Shown here piece by piece: positions 39,185-59,236 of a stretch of DNA of 64,000 bases (position 1 is its first letter; each line of letters opens with the position of its first letter). The stretch comes from Methanoregulaceae archaeon PtaB.Bin056 (GTDB taxonomy: Archaea; Halobacteriota; Methanomicrobia; Methanomicrobiales; Methanospirillaceae). The notes beneath the pieces are model-generated. The model was not told the DNA's origin. It ran no database searches and saw only the letters and a list, made by a program, of their open reading frames with translations. The position numbers and the translations under genes are program-made. Where the stretch lies: assembly GCA_002067095.1 (NCBI GenBank), contig MVQD01000106.1, positions 1-64,000 of the forward strand. The letters run 5' to 3'.

Positions 39185-42100
39185 ATGAAATGCGAAAAAG
39201 GGCTGCAGATAGCGATACCTATGGTCCTGTGTCTCCTCCTCGTGCTTCCCGCAAGCGCCGCCCTTGGCGTGACCGGGATCAGCCCGTCTTCGGAGCGGAA
39301 CACCGGGACTGTATTCATCACAAACCTTTCGGGAACAGATTTTCCTGACCAGGGATCTCTCCAGGTCTCACTGAACAGGACCGGCTACGCGGAGATCGCC
39401 GGCCAGTTCGTCACAGTGGTCTCGCCAACAAGAGCCACCTGCGTCTTTGACCTCATGGATAAAGAAGCAGGCGACTGGAACGTGACGGTGACCAACACCA
39501 CCAGTGGTGAAAAGGTCATCTCGCCTGTGATCTTTACCGTTATGAACCTCCCGCCGGCAGTCTCTGCAATAGACCCGGATGACCGGGAGAATACCGCGCC
39601 GGTCTATATCCAGAACCTTTCGGGAACCCATTTCCGCGGACCTGCCACTGTCACCCTCTCCCTTGAGAGCGAGGAAATTGACGCCACGAACGTGACGGTT
39701 CAGTCGTCGACCATGATAACCTGCGACCTGGACATTACGGACGCGACTCCCGGAGACTGGAACGTGACAGTCACCAACTACGACGGGCAGTCCGATGTCC
39801 TCGAAGCCGGCTTCAGGATCAGGGACCCAAAGCCTTCTGTCACAGGCATTACCCCCATTGAAGGTACCAATGACATGGTCGCCATAGGGATCACAGACCT
39901 TTCCGGCACTGGCTTCATGCAGGGAGCGACAGTCAACCTGTCGAGGACCGGTGAGCAGGACATCCCCACCATTAACGGTGCCATCGTCCAGTCACCCACG
40001 AAAATCCTCTGCTTCTTTGACCTGAGCGGCGCCGCGGTCGGAAAATGGGACGTGGTCGTCACGAACCCCGACCTCTACCATCAGTCGGGGGTCCTCCAGG
40101 ACGGATTCACGATAAAATATCCCGATAAGCCGGATGTTACGGGAATAAATCCCCCCTCGGGAGTGAACAATGACTGGATCGACGCGAACGTGACAGGGAC
40201 CGGCTTTCACCCCGGTGCGACCGTGATCCTCTCTCAGGGGGCACAGAACATCACGGGAACCGATGTCCTGGTGGTCTCCGGCAGCGACATCGGTGTCAGG
40301 TTCAACCTCACCGGCAAACCGAACGGGTCCTGGGACCTGACGGTGATCAACAACGACGGCCAGGACGGAACAAAATCCGCTGCATTCAACATCACCAATC
40401 CCCCGCCCACTGTCACTTCGATTGACCCGGCAACGGGTTCGAATGCCGGGTGGGTCCCTATAAATAACCTGTCGGGGACCGGATTTTTCGGGACCCCGAC
40501 GATCACCTTCTCCAACAGCACGCACTCCTTCAATGCGGACAGCGTCACGAGGATAAGCGATTCTCGTCTCCAGGGGAACGTGAACCTCGCGGGGAAAGCA
40601 GCAGGCGACTACAACGTCACGGTGACAAATCCCGATGGGCTGTCGAGCGCACCCTTCAGCAAGTTCACCGTGGTGAACCCGGACCCCACGATCGTTTCAT
40701 TCGACCCTGAACAGGGTGAGACCACCGAATCGGGCAAGGTGGTCAACGTGACCGGCACAAATTTCCTCAATGGTGCGGGTGTCAACCTCACGAGGTCAGG
40801 CAAACCCACCATCATTGGAGAGGTCACGTTCGGGGGCCCGACCTCCCTTTCCAGTGTCTTTGACCTGACCGGGAGCGAGGCAGGTGCCTGGAACCTGGTC
40901 GTCACGAACCCTGATGGAAACTCGGTGCAGGCCACTGATCCATTCATCATCACCAACCCGCCACCGAACCCGACAAGTATTCTCCCAGCATCCGGTGAAA
41001 ATTCAAACCCGATCGCAGGGGCGACACTTCATGGAACGGGGTTCCTGCCCGATTCCGCAGTGAAACTGGTGAAAGGCTCAGGCATCATCCAGGCCACTAT
41101 CCTGAACGTCAACGTGACCACCCAGACGATCATGTGTGTCTTTGACCTTGATGGAGCCGCAGTCGGCCCATGGGACGTGGTGGTCACGAACACTGCCGAC
41201 AACCTGAGCGGTACTCTGCCTGGTGGGTTCTTCATCAGGTATCCTGCCCCGCCCAACCCGGTCTCGATCGACCCTGCCGTTGCACCGAACAATGCCCCCG
41301 TATCGATCACCAACCTGTCTGGTACCGGTTTCAAACCAGAAGCAACAGTAGTGCTGAACCGCAACGGGTCCAATATCACCGCAACTGATGTGACCGTGGT
41401 CAGCGAGCACTCGATTGCATGCACGTTCAACATCACCGGAGCGACCCCTGACCTGTGGGACGTCATCGTCATCAACGAGGATGGCCAGTCCGGCACCGGG
41501 GCAGATCTCTTCGAGGTAAGGTATCCTGCACCTGCCGTGATCAGCGTTAGTCCCAGCAAGGGCGACAATAACAGGGCAGCGCTCCCCGTGAGCATTACCG
41601 GGAGCGGATTCAGGCAGAACGCCATGGTAAGGCTGAACAGCACGTTCGCACCGGATATCGTTGCCACCAACGTGAGTGTGAGCAGCACCTCACAAATGAG
41701 CTGCACGCTGAACCTTTCCGGGAAGGCGGTAGGAGACTACTATGTCATCGTCACCAATGACGATGGACAGTCGAATACACCGTCATCGGGTGCACTGTTT
41801 GCGGTCGAGTATCCAAACCCCGGAATTCTCTCCATTACTCCCGAGAAGGGAGCAAATGACAATCCCGCCCTCTCCTGTTCGATATCGGGGAGCAATTTCC
41901 GTCCCGGAGCAGAGGTGAAGTTCGTAAGGAGCGGGTTTGGAGATATCCTCGCAACGGGAGAGGTGGTAATCGACGCCAATACCCTTAACTGCACGGTCAA
42001 CCTGGTAGGAAAGGCTGCAGGGGACTGGACCGTGGTCGTTACAAATGATGACAACAAACAGGGAGCCCTTCCCGGAGGTTTCAAAATACTGCCTCCACCC

Positions 42101-43363
42101 CCGGCACTTGACTTTACCGGCAGCCCCACCTATGGGACGGTGCCTCTGACAGTCCAGTTCACGGACCAGACCCCGAATTACGACGGGCCATGGGTATGGG
42201 ACTTTGGTGACGGGTCGGTGAGCGGGGTATACGAGAAGAACCCCATCCATACCTACAATGCGGTGGGAACCTACAATGTGACACTCACCGGGGTCTACGA
42301 TAATGACCTCATCACTGTCACGAAACCTGGCTATATCACAGTGGTGAGGGCACCGGTTGCGGATTTCACCGCAAGCCCGACTTCGGGCAATGCCCCGCTC
42401 CTTGTCAGGTTCACCGACAGATCTGACGGAAATCCAAACTTCTGGGTGTGGAGGTTTGGCGACGGGACAATATCGAATACCCAGAACCCGTTCCACCTGT
42501 ATACCGCCCCCGGAATTTATTCCGTGAGCCTCACTGTGAAGAACGAGGCGGGTTCCGACACTCTCACAAAGACGGATTATATTACAGTCAGAGCGCTTCC
42601 GGTCGCTGAATTCACTGCGAACAGGACATCCGGGGATGCCCCGATGGCAGTCCAGTTCACTGATCAGTCCACGGGCGTTCCAAGCAGCTGGGCATGGGTC
42701 TTCGGAGACGGCACTACGTCCACTGAACAAAGCCCTAACCACACCTACACGACGCCAGGGACCTACAACGTCCGCCTGACCGTGACCAACAGTGCAGGGA
42801 CCGACACTAAGACAAAGAACAGCTATATTAAGGTGAACGAGGGAATGCAGGCAGCATTTACCTACACTACCAGCAACCCCGGAAACCTCGCCCCCCTCAC
42901 GGTTGCATTCACGGACACCTCGAAGGGATCACCCTCCCAATGGATTTGGAACTTTGGTGATGGGTTCATCGCCATGGAGAGAAACCCAATCCACACCTAT
43001 ACCACGCCCGGGAACTACACTGCAACACTGACGGTGTCTGATTCAAAGCAGAGCTCCTCTGTTTCTCAGGTCATCGAGGTCAAACAGAGGCTCTTTGCAG
43101 ACTTCAGCGCACAGCCAACGACAGGTTCGGTTCCCCTTACCGTGAGACTCTCAGACCAGAGCATAGGCGAGCCGAACAGCTGGACATGGGTGATCACAAA
43201 AGATCCCTACAATGTCACCATCTTTGAACCCGGTAGCAGGACCCAGGTCTATACCTTCAATGAACCCGGCACCTACGATGTGCGGCTCACGGTAACTGAC
43301 AGCTACGGAAACATCGCGACAATCCTGAAGAGTGACATCATAGAGGCGCTCCCCTTCCCGTGA
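39185..43363 (+). CDS. Giant IPT/TIG- and PKD-repeat surface protein
   Basis: The 1392-residue protein has a signal peptide (about 1-26, hydrophobic core IPMVLCLLLVLPASAALG). Ten IPT/TIG-like immunoglobulin repeats of about 95 residues follow, each with a P.V.SI.P..G.N opening, NLSGTGF and a closing WDVVVTN.DGQ. Five PKD domains of about 84 residues come last (residues about 972-1392, WDFGDGS/FGDGT motifs); the fifth is degenerate (WTWVITKDP). NxS/T sequons are abundant. No C-terminal transmembrane helix or PGF-type anchor is visible; it ends IEALPFP, so it may be secreted or held by other surface proteins. It probably functions in adhesion or the cell envelope. No close neighbours share its strand. 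Confidence 0.93.
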   Translation: MKCEKGLQIAIPMVLCLLLVLPASAALGVTGISPSSERNTGTVFITNLSGTDFPDQGSLQVSLNRTGYAEIAGQFVTVVSPTRATCVFDLMDKEAGDWNVTVTNTTSGEKVISPVIFTVMNLPPAVSAIDPDDRENTAPVYIQNLSGTHFRGPATVTLSLESEEIDATNVTVQSSTMITCDLDITDATPGDWNVTVTNYDGQSDVLEAGFRIRDPKPSVTGITPIEGTNDMVAIGITDLSGTGFMQGATVNLSRTGEQDIPTINGAIVQSPTKILCFFDLSGAAVGKWDVVVTNPDLYHQSGVLQDGFTIKYPDKPDVTGINPPSGVNNDWIDANVTGTGFHPGATVILSQGAQNITGTDVLVVSGSDIGVRFNLTGKPNGSWDLTVINNDGQDGTKSAAFNITNPPPTVTSIDPATGSNAGWVPINNLSGTGFFGTPTITFSNSTHSFNADSVTRISDSRLQGNVNLAGKAAGDYNVTVTNPDGLSSAPFSKFTVVNPDPTIVSFDPEQGETTESGKVVNVTGTNFLNGAGVNLTRSGKPTIIGEVTFGGPTSLSSVFDLTGSEAGAWNLVVTNPDGNSVQATDPFIITNPPPNPTSILPASGENSNPIAGATLHGTGFLPDSAVKLVKGSGIIQATILNVNVTTQTIMCVFDLDGAAVGPWDVVVTNTADNLSGTLPGGFFIRYPAPPNPVSIDPAVAPNNAPVSITNLSGTGFKPEATVVLNRNGSNITATDVTVVSEHSIACTFNITGATPDLWDVIVINEDGQSGTGADLFEVRYPAPAVISVSPSKGDNNRAALPVSITGSGFRQNAMVRLNSTFAPDIVATNVSVSSTSQMSCTLNLSGKAVGDYYVIVTNDDGQSNTPSSGALFAVEYPNPGILSITPEKGANDNPALSCSISGSNFRPGAEVKFVRSGFGDILATGEVVIDANTLNCTVNLVGKAAGDWTVVVTNDDNKQGALPGGFKILPPPPALDFTGSPTYGTVPLTVQFTDQTPNYDGPWVWDFGDGSVSGVYEKNPIHTYNAVGTYNVTLTGVYDNDLITVTKPGYITVVRAPVADFTASPTSGNAPLLVRFTDRSDGNPNFWVWRFGDGTISNTQNPFHLYTAPGIYSVSLTVKNEAGSDTLTKTDYITVRALPVAEFTANRTSGDAPMAVQFTDQSTGVPSSWAWVFGDGTTSTEQSPNHTYTTPGTYNVRLTVTNSAGTDTKTKNSYIKVNEGMQAAFTYTTSNPGNLAPLTVAFTDTSKGSPSQWIWNFGDGFIAMERNPIHTYTTPGNYTATLTVSDSKQSSSVSQVIEVKQRLFADFSAQPTTGSVPLTVRLSDQSIGEPNSWTWVITKDPYNVTIFEPGSRTQVYTFNEPGTYDVRLTVTDSYGNIATILKSDIIEALPFP

Positions 43364-49945: not shown

Positions 49946-50092
49946 GGTGACTCTTGGGGTAGATTGAAGAGACCGCGTCCCTTTTCCCTGGTTACGGACT
50001 GGACCATTCTTATGCAGAATCATGAAATAAACCCCGCACAATCCTCCATCCAGTCCCCATCCCCGGAGAGCAATACGCGACCCTGACGTGAA

Positions 50093-50100
50093 TCTATATA
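50093..50100 (+). promoter_or_regulatory. TATA box of the pyrophosphatase gene
   Basis: TCTATATA (50093-50100) lies about 96-103 bases before the ATG at 50196, giving a leader of about 70 bases. It also makes the open frame that begins at 50088 upstream of the promoter, which argues for 50196 as the true start. Confidence 0.55.
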
Positions 50101-50195
50101 CCGGCCGCCGACTCGATTATATTGGACAATGGGATGAAACCCGCTATGTTGCGGGGATACCACGCAGCCTCCCCTCTCCTCTGGAGAAGACCATC

Positions 50196-51812
50196 ATGAA
50201 GAACGTCTACATCATCGGGCACAGGCAGCCTGATACGGACAGCGTCGCAAGCGTCATCGGGTATGCAGAGTTCCTGAACCTGCGCGAACCGGGCCGTTAC
50301 ATACCCGCAGTCTGTGGACCCCTGAATGCCGAGACCCGGTATGCGCTGGCAGAACTCCGGGTCGATCCCCCGCTCTTTGTCGAGAGCGTTGAGCCGTGCG
50401 TGGGTGACATTCCCGCATTCTACACCCAGCGTGCGCCGGCCGAGATGCCAACCATCGATGTTGCAGCCATGATGGACGAGCAAGAGGTCAGGAACATCCC
50501 GATCGTCGATAAGGAAGCGCGTCTTGTCGGGCTGGTCTCTGAGCACGGTCTTGCCAGGGCATACGTGACCCCCAAGCTCGGGGAACCGCTCACGATCGGG
50601 CCCATCACCGGAGAGACCCTTGCACGGATACTGGATGCACGCATCTGCAACCAGGGGCAATTGACAATCCACGGCAGGGTCTACATCGTCATCGACGCCC
50701 TCCATGTGGCCCTCTCGCGCCTGGCTTCAACCGATGTGGCGATCGTCGGGGACAACGAGCCAACCCAGCTGGCCCTCCTCTCTGCGGGGATTTCGGTGCT
50801 CGTGGTTGCAGAGGGTGCCCCGGTGGGGGAGAGGGTTCTTGAGGCCGCCAGGAAGAACGGAGCCGCAATCCTTTCCACTCCCCTTGACGCGTTCTCCGTC
50901 GGGAGGATGATGCACCTCTCGCTTCCGGCAGGAAAAGTCATGGCCACCGACGTTCCGGTGATCAGGCTTGACGACACCCTTGCGGTTGCCAAGAAGATGG
51001 TGACCGACTCCAAGTACCGGACAGCCTGCGTGGTGGACGGAAAAGGTGTCCTCCTCGGCATGATATCGCGCAATACGTTCCTTGACGACGTGCAGAAGCA
51101 GGTCATCCTCCTTGACCACAACGAGTACGCCCAGGCGGTCGAAGGTGTCGAGTCCGCAGAGATCATCGAAGTGATCGACCACCACCGCATCGGAGCTATC
51201 ACCACGCTCAAACCCGTCCGGTTCCAGAACGAGCCGCTCGGATCCACCTCGACGATCATCACGAGGAAGTTCATGGAGTCCGGCACCAACCCCTCGCCAG
51301 GGACGGCAGGGATGCTCCTGGCAGGGATCCTCTCCGATACCCTTGTCCTCAGGATGTCAACCACAGCACCCGAAGATATCGCGGCAGTTGCGTTTCTCGA
51401 GCAGGTCACCGGTCTGGACGCCGGGACGTTTGGGACCGACCTTATCCGGCACGGGATGGACCTCGAGGGCACACCCCTCCACCAGCTCCTCGCGCAGGAC
51501 GTCAAGCGGTACACACTCTTTGGAAAAGAGGTTGTCATCGCCCAGGTGATGACCGCATCGCGGACCTATGCGCAGGAGCATGGAACAAAGATACGGGCGG
51601 AACTGGAGAAGTTGAGGCGGGGACAATCAGTCGACCTGTACATGGTGCTCTTCACCGATATCATCGGGAACCACAGCGACCTGTTTGCGGCAGGGGATCA
51701 CGGGATCCTGAATGCCCTTGGGTACGAATCGCAGCCTGTCGCGCTCCCAGGTGTCATGTCAAGGAAGAAGGACTTCCTGCCGGTGTTCGGCGGCAGGCTG
51801 AGGGATCTATAA
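50196..51812 (+). CDS. ppaC: CBS/DRTGG-containing family II inorganic pyrophosphatase
   Basis: The 538-residue protein starts MKNVYIIGHRQPDTDSVASVIGYAEFL, the DHH-superfamily N-terminus with metal-binding His and Asp residues. Two CBS domains (about 60-115 and 250-300) flank a DRTGG-like domain (about 118-230). The catalytic second half has IEVIDHHRIGAITTL and the C-terminal DHHA2 domain ending SRKKDFLPVFGG. Family II enzymes hydrolyse pyrophosphate with Mn or Co, and the CBS insert confers AMP/ADP inhibition and diadenosine polyphosphate activation in relatives. It is divergent from uvrA. Confidence 0.95.
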   Translation: MKNVYIIGHRQPDTDSVASVIGYAEFLNLREPGRYIPAVCGPLNAETRYALAELRVDPPLFVESVEPCVGDIPAFYTQRAPAEMPTIDVAAMMDEQEVRNIPIVDKEARLVGLVSEHGLARAYVTPKLGEPLTIGPITGETLARILDARICNQGQLTIHGRVYIVIDALHVALSRLASTDVAIVGDNEPTQLALLSAGISVLVVAEGAPVGERVLEAARKNGAAILSTPLDAFSVGRMMHLSLPAGKVMATDVPVIRLDDTLAVAKKMVTDSKYRTACVVDGKGVLLGMISRNTFLDDVQKQVILLDHNEYAQAVEGVESAEIIEVIDHHRIGAITTLKPVRFQNEPLGSTSTIITRKFMESGTNPSPGTAGMLLAGILSDTLVLRMSTTAPEDIAAVAFLEQVTGLDAGTFGTDLIRHGMDLEGTPLHQLLAQDVKRYTLFGKEVVIAQVMTASRTYAQEHGTKIRAELEKLRRGQSVDLYMVLFTDIIGNHSDLFAAGDHGILNALGYESQPVALPGVMSRKKDFLPVFGGRLRDL

Positions 51813-52313: not shown

Positions 52314-52342
52314 CATACAGGCGAGATAGTTATAGCCAGGTT

Positions 52343-52414
52343 GTCCCGGTAGGGTAGTGGATATCCTAGAAGCCTGCGGAGCTTTTGACCCGGGTTCAAG
52401 TCCCGGCCGGGGCG
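52343..52414 (+). tRNA. tRNA-Arg (GCG)
   Basis: The 72-base sequence folds as a cloverleaf. Acceptor GTCCCGG (52343-52349) pairs with CCGGGGC (52407-52413), with G discriminator. The anticodon arm GAAGC-CTGCGGA-GCTTT gives anticodon GCG (codon CGC), and the T arm is CCGGG-TTCAAGT-CCCGG. CCA is not encoded. The transposase relic begins about 400 bases downstream. Confidence 0.93.
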
Positions 52415-52812
52415 TTGGAACGGAGGGTTCTATGCCCTCCTTTTCGTAATTCCTGTTAGAATAGACGCGCGCGCTTTACTCTAATGTGATAGTGATTGTC
52501 CAGTACTTATTGTTTTTTGTGAGTCCATCAAGGAGCGGGCGTTCACACAAGAGCGGAGGGTCCGGGCCTGCTCCGTCCCGGAGCGATGCGTCTGGTGGAT
52601 AGCGGAAGTGGAAAGATCGGATAAAAGGGTTCTCATTCGAATCCTCTCTGCTGAATCACTCACTCGCCAGGGCAGGACAATCGGGTGCCCTTGCAGGTGC
52701 TGGAGAAGTTCAATTTAATGCCACTGATCACCATGGGGGAGCTGCGCAGGGTTTTGGTCGGCTTAGATAGTCAAGGGGATTTTTTTTCGCTGCGTCAATT
52801 TTATCATACGGG
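52415..52812. other. Gene-poor, AT-rich region after tRNA-Arg
   Basis: About 400 bases with no supported gene. It is lower in GC than the flanks and includes part of a longer open frame from 52685 whose start has no family resemblance. I looked for a repeat of the tRNA 3' end that would mark an attachment site and did not find one by eye. This is plausibly debris of an insertion. Confidence 0.4.
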
Positions 52813-53062
52813 CCGCGCGGAACTCAGAAAGATCTCATGGAAGATCGAGGAATTTCATCGCGGTGTCAAGCAGTTTTATGGAATTGAACGCTGTCAGGCA
52901 AGAAAAAGACAGTCTCAATTCAGCCATATTCTCCTCTCAATACGCGCATTCCTGGTATTTGAAAGAGCACGTCTGACGAATGGTACAAGCTGGTATGAGT
53001 CGAAAATGAGAATACATCGTGCCGCTGTTGTGCAATTTATCGAGAATCCTTCCTTCTTTTAA
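52813..53062 (+). pseudogene. C-terminal fragment of an IS transposase (DDE, IS701/IS4-like)
   Basis: From about 52813 the frame ending at 53062 reads RAELRKISWKIEEFHRGVKQFYGIERCQARKRQSQFSHILLSIRAFLVFERARL and continues GTSWYESKMRIHRAAVVQFI. This is the C-terminal WxIEexHRGxKQxxGxERCQxR block of DDE transposases, containing the catalytic Glu (in KIEEFHRG). The N-terminal half with both catalytic Asp residues is absent, so it is a remnant. The in-frame start at 52685 adds no conserved sequence. Confidence 0.75.
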
Positions 53063-53068
53063 TCTTTT

Positions 53069-53140
53069 ATGATTGTTCATGAAGGGGAGGCTCTCAATTA
53101 TTCAACTGCGTAACTCCTATACGGATTGAATAACAATCAT
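53069..53140. repeat. Imperfect inverted repeat at the end of the transposase relic
   Basis: ATGATTGTT (53069-53077) and TTATTCAA (53098-53105) together form the reverse complement of the contiguous TTGAATAACAATCAT (53126-53140), apart from a 20-base insertion between the two left arms and a one-base overlap. It begins seven bases after the transposase stop, where an insertion-sequence terminal repeat or a terminator would be expected. Confidence 0.35.
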
Positions 53141-53288
53141 GCCTTGTGCTGCGATATGCAGGGAAACTCGATTATTATCATGGACAGGGATCATGGTTGT
53201 ATCCGGGTGAACTGGACCAGACCGGATTCGCGAAGTGAAGAGAGTTCACCGGTATCTGTCGGAATCATACATTCAGGGGGAATCTGAA

Positions 53289-55151
53289 ATGACCCAAAGG
53301 TATCTCTCCCATATCTCTATTCTCATGCTCGTTATTCTGCTCTCGCTAATTATTTCATCAGCATATGCCGACGACCCCGGTAACACCACGACCAGTGCGA
53401 CATGCGTTGATTCCTCAAATATTTCATTCCCCTGCATGTGTGAAAATGCCTCAACACTCCTGACCAGGACTCCCGATGATAATGACGTGCAGAAAGGCCC
53501 TGCTGCCTTTGTGACTGACAACGAGAACGTTACCGGGGGAGTCGAGACCTTGCTGACTCGGGAAGCTTACGATAATATCACCAACGTTTCCCGGAATTAT
53601 TACGAATGCTGGGAGAGGAGCAGGGTGGAACTTGGGTTGCCGAACCTCCTCAACGGGCAATGGTACTATACCTACGAAAATATGACTGCTGCGATGAACG
53701 CAGATCCCAAGTTTGCCAAGGAAGGGGACATCAACACGAGAAAGCTTGAGATTGCAGCGTTCCTTGCAAATGTCGCCCAGGAAACAGGATCAAAAACCGC
53801 CGGCGACCCGTATGGCGGTCCGGGCTGTCAAATCCAGGAAGGCTGGGGTAGTGCCGCCATGAGGTTCAGCAAAGACTTCGGCGAGCCTCCGGTTGAAGGC
53901 GGGGCGGGGTTCTGTGGCAGGGGTCCCCTCCAGCTGACCTACCTTGTGAACTACAGGACCTTCGGTAATGAAACTGGCAAGGGAGATCTCTATTACTACA
54001 ACCCCGACCTCCTGACTATTGAACCGTTGACAGGAATCGGAGCATCACTCTGGTTCTGGAACCATGCTGAGAAAGGCCAGGGCTGGCCCGATACGATTCC
54101 GTTCAAACCTTCGGCGCACGATGTCGTTGTCGGGAAATGGCAGCCGACAGATTTGGATATCGCATGCGGACGATGCTCTGCGAACTTCGGAATCATCATT
54201 AATATAATCAACGGCGGAGTTGAATGCGGCCATACTGATGCAAGGGCGACGCAACGGGTGTCCTACCTGATCGCCATCGCCCGTGAGATGGGAGTGACCA
54301 TTCCCCCTGGGTTTGCCGTTGACTGCGCCGGGCAAAAGAACTTCGCTATATGCCAATCGTATAAACCGCCCAGTGATTCGCCGTCTGAGCAACACGGAGA
54401 CGGTCCGGAAATGTTAATCGCCTCTGCATCGCCGGCTGATCAGACCGTTACCTTCACGTTTGAAGAAAATTTGACTACATATCCGCTCTCAATCCAGTCG
54501 GTCTCCTTCGTCCCGAACCAGCCGGTCTCCGAGACCCAGTGCATCATCGACGATGAAAAGCCGTTGGCCGGGTTCGCCTACAGCGGAGGGCCGGCGGCCT
54601 ACAAGATTATCGAGTTGAACTGGGTCAACCCTTCAGCTATTAAATACGGGACAATCCGTTTCAGCGTGCTCGGGTCATGGCTCCGCGAGAACAAGATCAA
54701 TCCTGCTGATATCGTCATGGTGCGGCAGAATGATTACGCCTGGTCGAAGCTCCCGACTACGTTTGACCACCAGGCCGGAGATGTCTATTATTATTATGCA
54801 ATAACCCCCGGTTTCTCATACTTTGCAGTGACCGGAAAAAAGACTGTACCTGTCACGAATACAGTCACGGAGGTGAGCCCGGCACCTGTTGAGGAGTCCC
54901 GGCAGGACGCTGCGATTGAATCCAACATCCTGATGACAACGATTCCGACCACACTAGCATCGGCATATATTGCCCCTGAAAAGACCGGAACCCCGGTACC
55001 GGCAGCACCGGAACCTGGAATTGCTGAGGGCACCCCGGTGGTGTATTGGGCTGTCCTGTCCGGAGTAATTGTCCTTGTTGCAGCGGTGGCCATACTGGGC
55101 AGGCGCTGGTGGCTGCGCAGGCAGAACCCGAAGCTCTTCGGGAAGGAATAA
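53289..55151 (+). CDS. Membrane-anchored GH19 chitinase-like glycosidase
   Basis: The 620-residue surface protein has a signal peptide (about 8-26). A complete GH19 domain (about 90-346) follows, with [76 protein letters not shown] and [16 protein letters not shown], in the same order as plant and bacterial GH19 chitinases. Glu165 (QETG) and Glu184 (IQEGWG) fit the two catalytic glutamates. A PGF-pre-PGF domain (about 375-515, archaeal surface type) is next, then a Pro/Thr stalk, a transmembrane helix (about 586-605) and a basic tail. GGGGG precedes ATG 53289. GH19 enzymes cut chitin and, in phage lysins, peptidoglycan. The domain may be acquired; the anchor is archaeal. Confidence 0.9.
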
Positions 55152-55339
55152 CATTAATATATATTTATGGCCTTTGTCAAGGAATTACCTTTTTTCCCAG
55201 GACACGCCCGCATGGTTGATCAAAAAGCCCTGGATGATCGCCTGAAAATCGGGGAAAATGTCTTCTCCCTTTGCCCCTACCAGAAATTACTAATATTCCT
55301 TTCATGTGACTTCTGCCATATCAGAGTGGTGACCCAACA

Positions 55340-57298
55340 GTGACCGAAGAACAGAAACCCGTATTGATCAGGGAGAAGATTGAGGTATGCGAGCTCGACC
55401 GCGTCCGCCTCGCCCTGATGAACCCCCAGCTGATCGAACAGAAGAAGGAGGAACGTACATTCGATGAATCGGCAAAACCGTACCTCGAACTGACGATGAA
55501 AGACGGAATTGAGACGGTCTGGGACCGCTACGAGATGCAGCAGCCTCCCTGCAAGTACTGCGCATCGGGGCTTTCCTGTAGCCGGTGTGCCATGGGGCCA
55601 TGCCGGATCATTCCTCCCAACCGCATCCGGGGGGTGTGCGGGGCGGATGCGGACCTCATCGTTGCCCGCAACCTCCTTGATACCCTTGCCACCGGGGCCG
55701 CAGCGCACTCGGACCATGGACGGGAGATCGTGCTTACTCTCTATGGGATCGGGAAGGGGACCGTGAAGGACTATGTCATCTCGGACCGGGAGAAGTTGGT
55801 GAGGATTGCCAGTGAGTTCGGGGTGGATACAAAGGGGAGGGATGAACAACAGATCGCAGCCGATCTGGGGCGCGCGATGCTGGAGGAGTTCGGGACAGTG
55901 AAGGACTCTCTCCAGTTCGCTGCAAGGGCTCCATCCTCTACCCGGGGGATATGGGCGAACCTGGGCATCAGCCCGCGAGGCATCGACCGCGAAGTGGTGG
56001 ACGCCATGCACCGAGTACAGATGGGAGTCGGGGCCGATTACCAGAACATTCTCCTGCATGGCCTCAGAACAGCCCTGTCAGACGGGTGGGGCGGCTCCAT
56101 GATGGCCACAGAGATCTCTGATGTGCTCTTCGGCACCCCCGCCCCGAACGAATCCCTCGTCAACCTCGGGGTCGTCAAAAAGGACCACGTGAACATCTCG
56201 CTCCACGGCCACAACCCCATGCTCTCCGAGATGGTGGTGAAGGCGGCAAAAGACCCGGAGGTACTCTCGCTGGTACAGGGAGCAGGAGCAAAGGGGATCA
56301 ACCTGGTCGGGCTTTGCTGCACGGGGAACGAACTCCTGATGCGAAAAGGTATCCCGAATGCCGGCAACCACTTCAACCAGGAGCTGCTGATCGCAACCGG
56401 CGCGCTCGAGGCAATGGTGGTAGACTACCAGTGTATCTTCCCCTCGCTCCCCAGGACGGCAAGCTGCTACCACACTTTCATCATCTCAACGAGTCCGAAA
56501 TCAAAGATCCCAGGGTCATACTACTTTGAGTTCGAACCGGAGACCGCATACGTCACCGCGAAAGCCATCGTGAAGATGGCCGTTGGAAACTTCCGGAACC
56601 GAAACCCTGACCGGGTCTTCATCCCTGTGAAACCCATAAAAGTAACCACAGGCTTCTCGGTCGAGGCCATCAGGGCCGCGCTCGGGGGCACGTTCAAGCC
56701 GCTGATCGACCAGATCGCAAACGGCAACATCAGGGGAGCGGTGGGAATCGTGGGATGCAACAACCCGAAAGTAAAGCACGACTACGGCCATGTTACGCTC
56801 GGCAAGGAGCTGATCAAGCGGGATATCCTCTGTGTCGAGACGGGCTGTGCGGCAATCGCGTCCGGGAAGGCGGGGCTGCTCCAGGCGTCTGCCGCCGCTC
56901 TCGCCGGTTCAGGGCTCAAGGCGGTCTGCGAGTCGCTTGGAATACCCCCTGTCCTGCACATGGGCTCCTGCGTGGACTGTTCACGCATCCTTCACCTCGC
57001 AGCAGAGCTTGGGAACGCCCTGAATGTCGGAATCCACAAGCTCCCCCTCGCGGGTGCCGCACCCGAATGGTACTCCCAGAAGGCTGTCTCGATTGGTTCC
57101 TACTTCGTCGCGTCGGGGGTTTTCACAGTGCTTGGCGTCATGCCCAAGATCTCCGGGAGCCCCCCTGTGGTCTCCCTCCTTACTGAGGGGCTGAAAGGGG
57201 CAGTGAACGCGTCGTTCGCAGTCGAGCCAGACCCCCTGAAAGCCGCGGATCTCATTGCAGATCACATAGAGCGGAAGCGGACCGAACTGGGGATCTGA
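55340..57298 (+). CDS. cooS: Anaerobic carbon monoxide dehydrogenase, monofunctional
   Basis: The 652-residue protein has the N-terminal B/D cluster region with CKYC, CSRCAMGPCRI and CGADADLIVARN. Later come the C-cluster ligand segments LHGHNPMLSEMV, GLCCTGNELL, VGCNNPKV, CVETGCAAIASG and MGSCVDCSR. It oxidises CO to CO2, or reduces CO2, at a [NiFe4S] centre. It starts at GTG 55340 with GGTGA upstream. cooC follows 20 bases downstream. No acetyl-CoA synthase, CooF-type ferredoxin or energy-converting hydrogenase gene is adjacent, so the electron partner is not known. Confidence 0.96.
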   Translation: MTEEQKPVLIREKIEVCELDRVRLALMNPQLIEQKKEERTFDESAKPYLELTMKDGIETVWDRYEMQQPPCKYCASGLSCSRCAMGPCRIIPPNRIRGVCGADADLIVARNLLDTLATGAAAHSDHGREIVLTLYGIGKGTVKDYVISDREKLVRIASEFGVDTKGRDEQQIAADLGRAMLEEFGTVKDSLQFAARAPSSTRGIWANLGISPRGIDREVVDAMHRVQMGVGADYQNILLHGLRTALSDGWGGSMMATEISDVLFGTPAPNESLVNLGVVKKDHVNISLHGHNPMLSEMVVKAAKDPEVLSLVQGAGAKGINLVGLCCTGNELLMRKGIPNAGNHFNQELLIATGALEAMVVDYQCIFPSLPRTASCYHTFIISTSPKSKIPGSYYFEFEPETAYVTAKAIVKMAVGNFRNRNPDRVFIPVKPIKVTTGFSVEAIRAALGGTFKPLIDQIANGNIRGAVGIVGCNNPKVKHDYGHVTLGKELIKRDILCVETGCAAIASGKAGLLQASAAALAGSGLKAVCESLGIPPVLHMGSCVDCSRILHLAAELGNALNVGIHKLPLAGAAPEWYSQKAVSIGSYFVASGVFTVLGVMPKISGSPPVVSLLTEGLKGAVNASFAVEPDPLKAADLIADHIERKRTELGI

Positions 57299-58119: not shown

Positions 58120-59046
58120 TCAGTGGAGAGGAAACCCCCTGTGCAGGCCATACGTTCTCGCTGCCGATACGGCCTCGCGATATTCGGAGCCGGTAATCCT
58201 CCTCATGAGGGAGCCTTGATGGGGGTGGCGGGCATTTCCCAAAATCTGCCCGCAGGGGTGGTACTGGTCCATGATATTCACATACGTATCCCTCGAGATG
58301 TCCCGGGCAATGAACCGCAACACCTCGTCGCTGCCCGCAAGGTGATCCGGGAGAACGAGGTGGCGGACCAGGAGTCCCTTCACTGCGATCCCGTCCTCGA
58401 CTACAAGGTCGCCTACCTGGCGATGCATCTCGCAAATTGCCTCCTCCATCACCCCTGCGTATCCGGGCGCATCCGAGAGCGCGAATCCAACTTCGTCGCT
58501 TCCGTATTTTGCATCGGGCATGTAGATGTCGAACACTCCGTCCAGCAGCTTCAGTGTTTCAACAGAGTCGTACGTTCCAGTGTTATAGACGAGCGGGATG
58601 TCCAACCCCCTCCCGGCTGCAATAAGCACCGCTTCAAGGACCTGCGGCACAAAGTGGGTCGGGGAGACGAAGTTTATGTTGTGGCACCCCCGCTCGCAAA
58701 GTTCCATCATCATCGCTGCCAGTTCCCCGGATCTGACCTCTATCCCGCGGTACTCCTGGCTTATCTCATAGTTCTGGCAGAAGACGCACCGCATGTTGCA
58801 CCCGGTCAAAAAGATTGTCCCGGAACCGTGCCTTCCCACGAGCGGGGGCTCCTCTCCGAAATGGGGCCCATAAGAGGAGACGACAGCGAGGCGACCGCTC
58901 CTGCAGTACCCTACTTCCCCGCTGATCCGGTCGATACCGCATTCGCGGGGACAGACTCTGCAGGGCGAGAGCAGGGAAACGGCGGCATCCACCCTCTGTT
59001 CGAGCTCGCCGGTCTCCAGGAGTCGCAGATACGAGGGCCTGTGCAT
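58120..59046 (-). CDS. PflA-like radical SAM protein
   Basis: The 308-residue protein has the radical SAM cysteine motif CNMRCVFCQNYEIS near residue 85 and a second Cys cluster in front (CRVCPRECGI, plus CRSG). It has NTGTYDS and YMPDAKYGSDEVG later. This resembles the archaeal family annotated as pyruvate-formate-lyase-activating-like radical SAM proteins; the target glycyl enzyme is not visible here and the family's function is unsettled. It is convergent with cooC and unrelated in direction. Confidence 0.9.
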   Translation of the reverse strand: MHRPSYLRLLETGELEQRVDAAVSLLSPCRVCPRECGIDRISGEVGYCRSGRLAVVSSYGPHFGEEPPLVGRHGSGTIFLTGCNMRCVFCQNYEISQEYRGIEVRSGELAAMMMELCERGCHNINFVSPTHFVPQVLEAVLIAAGRGLDIPLVYNTGTYDSVETLKLLDGVFDIYMPDAKYGSDEVGFALSDAPGYAGVMEEAICEMHRQVGDLVVEDGIAVKGLLVRHLVLPDHLAGSDEVLRFIARDISRDTYVNIMDQYHPCGQILGNARHPHQGSLMRRITGSEYREAVSAARTYGLHRGFPLH

Positions 59047-59236
59047 AGGGGATCCCCACCTGTCACCAATTGGCGTGTGTACCCAGTTCGTGTTCCTCTC
59101 AATATATCAGCCATTCGCTGCGGTATCAGCCTACGCCGCAGGAATTTGCCAAAAAGAATATGGGGAGAGAGGCACATTGGAGTTATAACGGCTATTCCAA
59201 GCTGTATTGCGAAATAGAAGAGAGGTGAATCTGACA

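Follow-up and report, generated by a model that had tools for sequence, protein, structure and literature searches.

The window analysed here is a stretch of 64,000 nucleotides from contig MVQD01000106.1 of Methanoregulaceae archaeon PtaB.Bin056. It contains, between two genes that are syntenic in congeneric genomes, a gene for a GH19 protein of 620 residues. The features of this locus are, with the strand in brackets:

50088..51812 (+): left flank, manganese-dependent inorganic diphosphatase (DHH-CBS), syntenic in congeners
52342..52415 (+): tRNA-Arg (GCG), found by ARAGORN; the insert starts at its 3′ end
52416..55193 (no strand): insert of about 2.8 kb, delimited by blastn of syntenic loci and absent from congeners G144, G150 and G155
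52528..52694 (+): decayed fragment sharing 69% identity with a portion of a long open reading frame of congeners G150 and G153
52685..53062 (+): C-terminal remnant of an IS701-family transposase (NF049921, 3.9e-21, profile positions 238-317 of 318)
53289..55151 (+): gene of the GH19 protein, 620 amino acids, ATG start, stop at 55151
53289..53369 (+): Sec-type signal peptide, residues 1-27, from hydropathy and inspection of the translation
53538..54356 (+): GH19 catalytic domain, residues 84-356, from Pfam PF00182, PDB phmmer and VIA-align
53781..53783 (+): codon of the catalytic acid E165 (rye E67), from alignment to rye chitinase; invariant in 55 GH19 sequences
53838..53840 (+): codon of the catalytic base E184 (rye E89), from the same alignment; likewise invariant in the 55 sequences
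54432..54836 (+): PGF-pre-PGF domain, residues 382-516 (TIGR04213, 4.9e-18)
55032..55094 (+): C-terminal transmembrane helix, about residues 582-602, from hydropathy; kept in relatives
55095..55148 (+): basic tail, about residues 603-620, with [14 protein letters not shown], common to surface proteins of related archaea
55340..57298 (+): right flank, CooS-type CO dehydrogenase, syntenic in congeners

The protein combines a GH19 domain with the parts expected of a surface protein. Translation most probably begins at the ATG; an in-frame GTG at 53235, which would give 638 residues, is graded less likely. Hydropathy peaks at about residues 3-29, where inspection suggests a putative signal peptide cleavage between A and D of S-A-Y-A/D-D, and again at about residues 578-607, corresponding to the C-terminal helix, behind which the basic tail reads [17 protein letters not shown]. 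The Pfam search returned Glyco_hydro_19 (PF00182) for residues 123-336 with 138.3 bits against a cut-off of 25.5 (E 4.6e-40), which places the protein inside GH19, and detected no other domain in the 620 residues; the single NCBIfam domain is PGF_pre_PGF (TIGR04213, 65.6 bits, cut-off 28). Nine N-glycosylation sequons are present. A preliminary description of this DNA had reported a whole GH19 domain at residues 90-346 together with a signal peptide, a PGF-pre-PGF domain, a membrane helix and a basic tail. All of these elements were recovered, with coordinates and motifs as described, and only the limits of the GH19 domain had to be moved, since alignment to plant enzymes widens it to about residues 84-356.

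The active site was compared with that of rye seed chitinase and within an alignment of 55 rows (the GH19 protein and 54 viral GH19 proteins). E165 and E184, previously proposed as the catalytic pair, align with rye E67 and E89, so that both glutamates are kept, and T217 aligns with the water-placing residue of the rye enzyme. Identity to rye chitinase extends over 88 of 215 aligned residues (about 41%), the published GH19 core carries the listed residue at 25 of 26 positions (the exception, rye Y96, is F193), and the residues of subsites -2, -1 and +1 are intact or conservatively changed. Rye C85, C204 and C236 correspond to C180, C313 and C346, and a pairing of C107 with C180 is plausible from the sequence. 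The surroundings of the catalytic machinery are less well preserved. In the chitinase (CHIT) signature, composed of C97, C105, F/L/W151, G190, G192 and F/Y/L222, G192 is the one residue of six that is kept, the others being S194 (for C97), V202 (for C105), I (151), A (190) and I (222). The replacement of rye C97 and C105 leaves the protein devoid of the loop-3 disulfide, and the distal aromatics W72, W82 and Y123 of rye chitinase have given way to S, G and V, respectively. T217 and L242 are residues commoner in endolysins. With regard to the endolysin (ELYS) signature residues (I33, R109, G118, L/Y173), G118 is matched by G205, at a position that is glycine in rye as well, and R109 falls on D196 by ungapped spacing. 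An intact catalytic apparatus thus lies in surroundings that have lost most chitinase-specific residues, which is why any substrate is assigned here only tentatively.

Sequence, tree and fold comparisons nevertheless suggest that the GH19 domain is nearer to chitinases than to phage endolysins, and thereby disfavour the likeness to GH19 phage endolysins that had been put forward. In the PDB, phmmer gave plant class I/II chitinases and reconstructed ancestral GH19s as best matches (1e-34 to 1e-33), followed at a distance by Streptomyces ChiC (5e-15) and a phage endolysin (1.6e-5). A tree of 25 rows, including seven reference chitinases and 17 viral GH19s, separates these two groups by a branch with 99/98 support, and the GH19 protein lies on the side of the chitinases. 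The branch leading to it is long (1.36), and a grouping with the viral side stays conceivable (60/87). The core residues favour chitinase over endolysin with log-odds of 3-7, and loop 5, [14 protein letters not shown], is similar to that of loopful chitinases. An AlphaFold2 model based on the 55-row alignment, which consists mostly of endolysins, reached pLDDT 70.6 and pTM 0.74 with loops of low confidence (a single-sequence model gave pLDDT 30). This model shows the GH19 lysozyme-type fold and aligns in VIA-align with plant GH19 chitinases at Z 21-22 (22.0 to 3cql, 21.7 to 4j0l), whereas endolysins scored Z 12-16 although the alignment behind the model was viral.

GH19 occurs in plants, bacteria, phages, and some other eukaryotes. 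A profile model that finds the gene in its own genome detected no GH19 in any of the other 231 genomes of the order, the other 392 genomes of a phylum sample, or 238 genomes of another class, these sets overlapping with one another. A pattern scan of genome contigs with single-protein patterns matched the anchor module alone. GH19 had earlier been described as rarely reported from archaea, and an established family of archaeal homologues was not encountered among the genomes searched. In its text, the paper describing the GH19 Engineering Database, which comprises 22,461 sequences, makes no mention of archaea (PMC8547705), and the characterised enzymes in a review of archaeal chitinases all come from GH18.

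The second half of the protein has relatives of a different kind. Residues 367-619 correspond to the C-terminal portion of large surface proteins from a genus (g11) of the same archaeal family, with identities of 41-44% in the genome search and 39-41% in tblastn, helix and tail included. Relatives of this module occur in 116 of 232 genomes of the order and in none of 12 congeners. From the g11 matches and the absence from congeners, the anchor is archaeal and, by this evidence, not derived from the host genus. The GH19 protein shares the stalk, the C-terminal helix and the tail RRWWxRRQNPxLF with the PGF-pre-PGF surface proteins of g11. It differs from them by its GH19 domain, which had no counterpart in the related genomes searched, and by the lack of a detectable PGF-CTERM sorting signal: no PGF-CTERM model matched at E values up to 1, and the C-terminus consists simply of a membrane helix followed by the basic tail. 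Together, the PGF-pre-PGF match, the helix and the tail support the surface anchoring that had been proposed. The tail RRWWxRRQNPxLF (55095-55148 in the window) is also conserved in unrelated surface proteins from several genera of the order (loci L002, L227, L228 and L230), which suggests a common membrane-retention or sorting signal. The closest tail found for the GH19 protein is an orphan frame of about 71 codons in a genome of a further genus (G219, genus g16; L229:873-1052, minus strand), 70% identical to residues 561-620 and possibly the stump of a related gene. Elsewhere in the window, positions 39185-43360 encode a surface protein of 1392 amino acids with five PKD domains and a choice-of-anchor Z domain.

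Comparison with congeneric genomes defines the insert. In G144, G150 and G155 the site is empty, the order being inorganic diphosphatase, a small gene, tRNA-Arg and CO dehydrogenase, and tRNA-Arg occupies the equivalent place in congener loci L004, L006 and L014. Homology in blastn ends at 52415, the last base of the tRNA, and restarts at 55194 in L006 (G155) or at 55263-55271 in L014 and L004. The GC content of the insert is 0.45-0.56 as compared with about 0.60 in the flanks, and the GC3 of the GH19 gene is 0.62 versus about 0.75 in its neighbours. The long frame in G150 and G153 that is homologous to the decayed fragment has at least 1,023 codons and belongs to no Pfam or PHROGs family. No att-type direct repeats flanking the insert were found. 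Lateral gain, at which the preliminary description had hinted from the adjoining tRNA and transposase fragment (both of which were located as stated), is now much more strongly supported by the empty site in three congeners, the low GC, the mobile remnants and the absence of GH19 elsewhere in the order, and a single recent acquisition at the tRNA gene would be the simplest reading. Two other origins were considered and rejected. Assembly contamination does not fit the position of the gene, which lies within a contig of 301 kb and is flanked left and right by sequence syntenic with congeners, and a phage origin finds no match among phage records at E 1e-5 and no loopful or close relative in 2.9 million viral contigs, which yielded endolysins and a few distant matches; within the insert, no phage gene was recognised beside the IS remnant and the decayed fragment. 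Two further observations concern neighbouring sequences. The CO dehydrogenase, intact in other congeners, is broken in G150 (L014:1501-2122), where residues 1-174 and 605-652 are left, with stops. At 58219-59214, the window contains an open reading frame of 332 codons that has no Pfam or NCBIfam match and, with a GC3 of 0.60, the lowest value of the long frames in the window.

The host genome is 95.65% complete. By its relatives we infer that the host belongs to a Methanomicrobiales-type order, and the earlier designation as a methanogen thus holds with respect to kinship. It is not borne out by gene content, as methyl-coenzyme M reductase alpha (mcrA, PF02745) was not found in the assembly, whereas control methanogens matched; a motif search covering 1.79 of 2.24 Mb did not find it either. 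The simplest reason for this absence is an assembly gap.

Among known systems, the GH19 protein has most in common with the plant class I/II (loopful) chitinases from rye (4j0l/4dwx) and barley (2baa), with which it shares the fold, the catalytic pair, the 25 core residues, the sequence of loop 5, and the cysteines equivalent to rye C85, C204 and C236. Apart from the missing disulfide and distal-subsite aromatics, it departs from these enzymes in having a longer loop before the KPS motif, an archaeal stalk, and a membrane anchor. Bacterial loopful chitinases (CHIT 6-12 of the GH19 Engineering Database; proteobacterial L062 and L063) belong to the same GH19 branch. L062 and L063 have the WQP and IINGGVECG stretches in common with the GH19 protein; their C-termini appear PKD-like and chitin-binding-like on inspection, and their tblastn identity to it is just 29-32%. 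Phage endolysins (SPN1S, 4ok7; PaGH19Lys, 9eoi) share the catalytic core and the threonine at the water-placing position. The fold comparison with them gave Z 13-16, as against 21-22 with the plant chitinases. In contrast to them, the GH19 protein has mostly chitinase-like residues at the discriminating core positions and gave no match to a peptidoglycan-binding domain. A further parallel is offered by archaeal peptidoglycan hydrolases, which kill bacteria and of which those counted carry a wall-binding domain (Strock et al. 2025, PMC12352652). These, too, are laterally gained, patchily distributed extracellular hydrolases in archaea, but the GH19 protein belongs to the chitinase branch and is devoid of a cell-wall-binding Pfam domain; GH19 is not mentioned in the main text of that study.

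Family, conserved active site, anchor, insert and relatives having been established by computation, what we infer for export, activity, substrate and benefit is the following. The protein would be exported by Sec with removal of the signal peptide, exposing the GH19 domain outside the cell on the PGF-pre-PGF stalk, while the C-terminal helix would hold it in the membrane with the short basic tail inside. E165 as acid and E184 as base, with T217 placing the water, would then cut extracellular GlcNAc polymers at their β-1,4 bonds with inversion, the established GH19 mechanism. Chitin or chito-oligosaccharide from fungal or arthropod debris could be cut in this way at the cell surface, and the products might feed fermenting neighbours close by; to our knowledge, the typical methanogens of the order do not ferment sugars. 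The gene itself may have arisen when a GH19 domain of the chitinase branch was joined to a surface anchor from a related archaeal genus, and it probably entered the genome at the tRNA-Arg site along with mobile DNA. The reading of the protein as a laterally acquired, surface-tethered GH19 endo-hydrolase with chitin or chito-oligosaccharide as its likeliest substrate has, in our estimate, about an even chance of being correct. Chitin-type GlcNAc polymers are somewhat favoured over peptidoglycan. Since no chitin-binding module was found in the protein by Pfam and no GH18 chitinase in the host, a nutritional role in chitin use is speculative. The change of five of six signature residues, the loss of the distal aromatics, the conceivable viral grouping (60/87) and the long branch all speak against a chitinase.

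The same losses, together with endolysin-like T217 and L242, are what a muramidase might display, and the tethered domain could serve as a contact-dependent weapon that cuts the MurNAc-GlcNAc backbone of touching bacteria. GH19 does include muramidases (PMC12329726; for Trichomonas GH19s, PMC12612818), and the archaeal peptidoglycan hydrolases are as patchy and laterally gained as the present gene (PMC12352652). Such a function, the main rival to the chitin reading, appears unlikely, if worth considering, in view of the tree, the fold ranking and the core residues, which favour the chitinase branch, and of the missing cell-wall-binding domain, which the latter study required; moreover, being tethered to the membrane, the enzyme could reach a bacterial wall only at close range and where that wall is exposed. 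A more specific version is held to be somewhat less likely still. In it, a chitinase-branch GH19 was retuned to peptidoglycan, with loss of the loop-3 disulfide and the distal aromatics, was joined to a membrane stalk of archaeal type and spread with mobile DNA that inserts at tRNA genes; if true, archaea would possess a kind of weapon distinct from the modular wall-binding enzymes known to date. The altered signature residues and aromatics could also indicate that the fold was kept for binding, the protein acting as a non-catalytic GlcNAc-binding adhesin or lectin. Plant chitinase-like proteins with a GH19 fold are non-enzymatic (PMC8547705), and the stalk and anchor are found on other large surface proteins. 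Yet both catalytic glutamates, T217 and the intact or conservatively changed residues of subsites -2, -1 and +1 would be unexpected if activity were dispensable, and a lectin role is therefore improbable. Placement at the cell surface and the nine sequons are compatible with an envelope enzyme for the host's own surface glycans, but a recent insert in one genome of the order is hardly where a housekeeping envelope function would be sought, and we regard this as very improbable.

In the predicted surface-tethered hydrolase of chitin-type polymers, a familiar enzyme family would thus appear in an unusual host and with its domains in a new arrangement; the history of its insertion is clear, and its activity is predicted. 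With the empty site preserved in sister species, the locus documents cleanly the recent acquisition of a putative cell-wall-polymer hydrolase by an archaeon, and it raises the question of whether chitin, or else the bacteria living around them, is a target of archaea from methanogen lineages. The GH19 gene may therefore show how archaea act on the cell-wall sugars of fungi, animals or bacteria.
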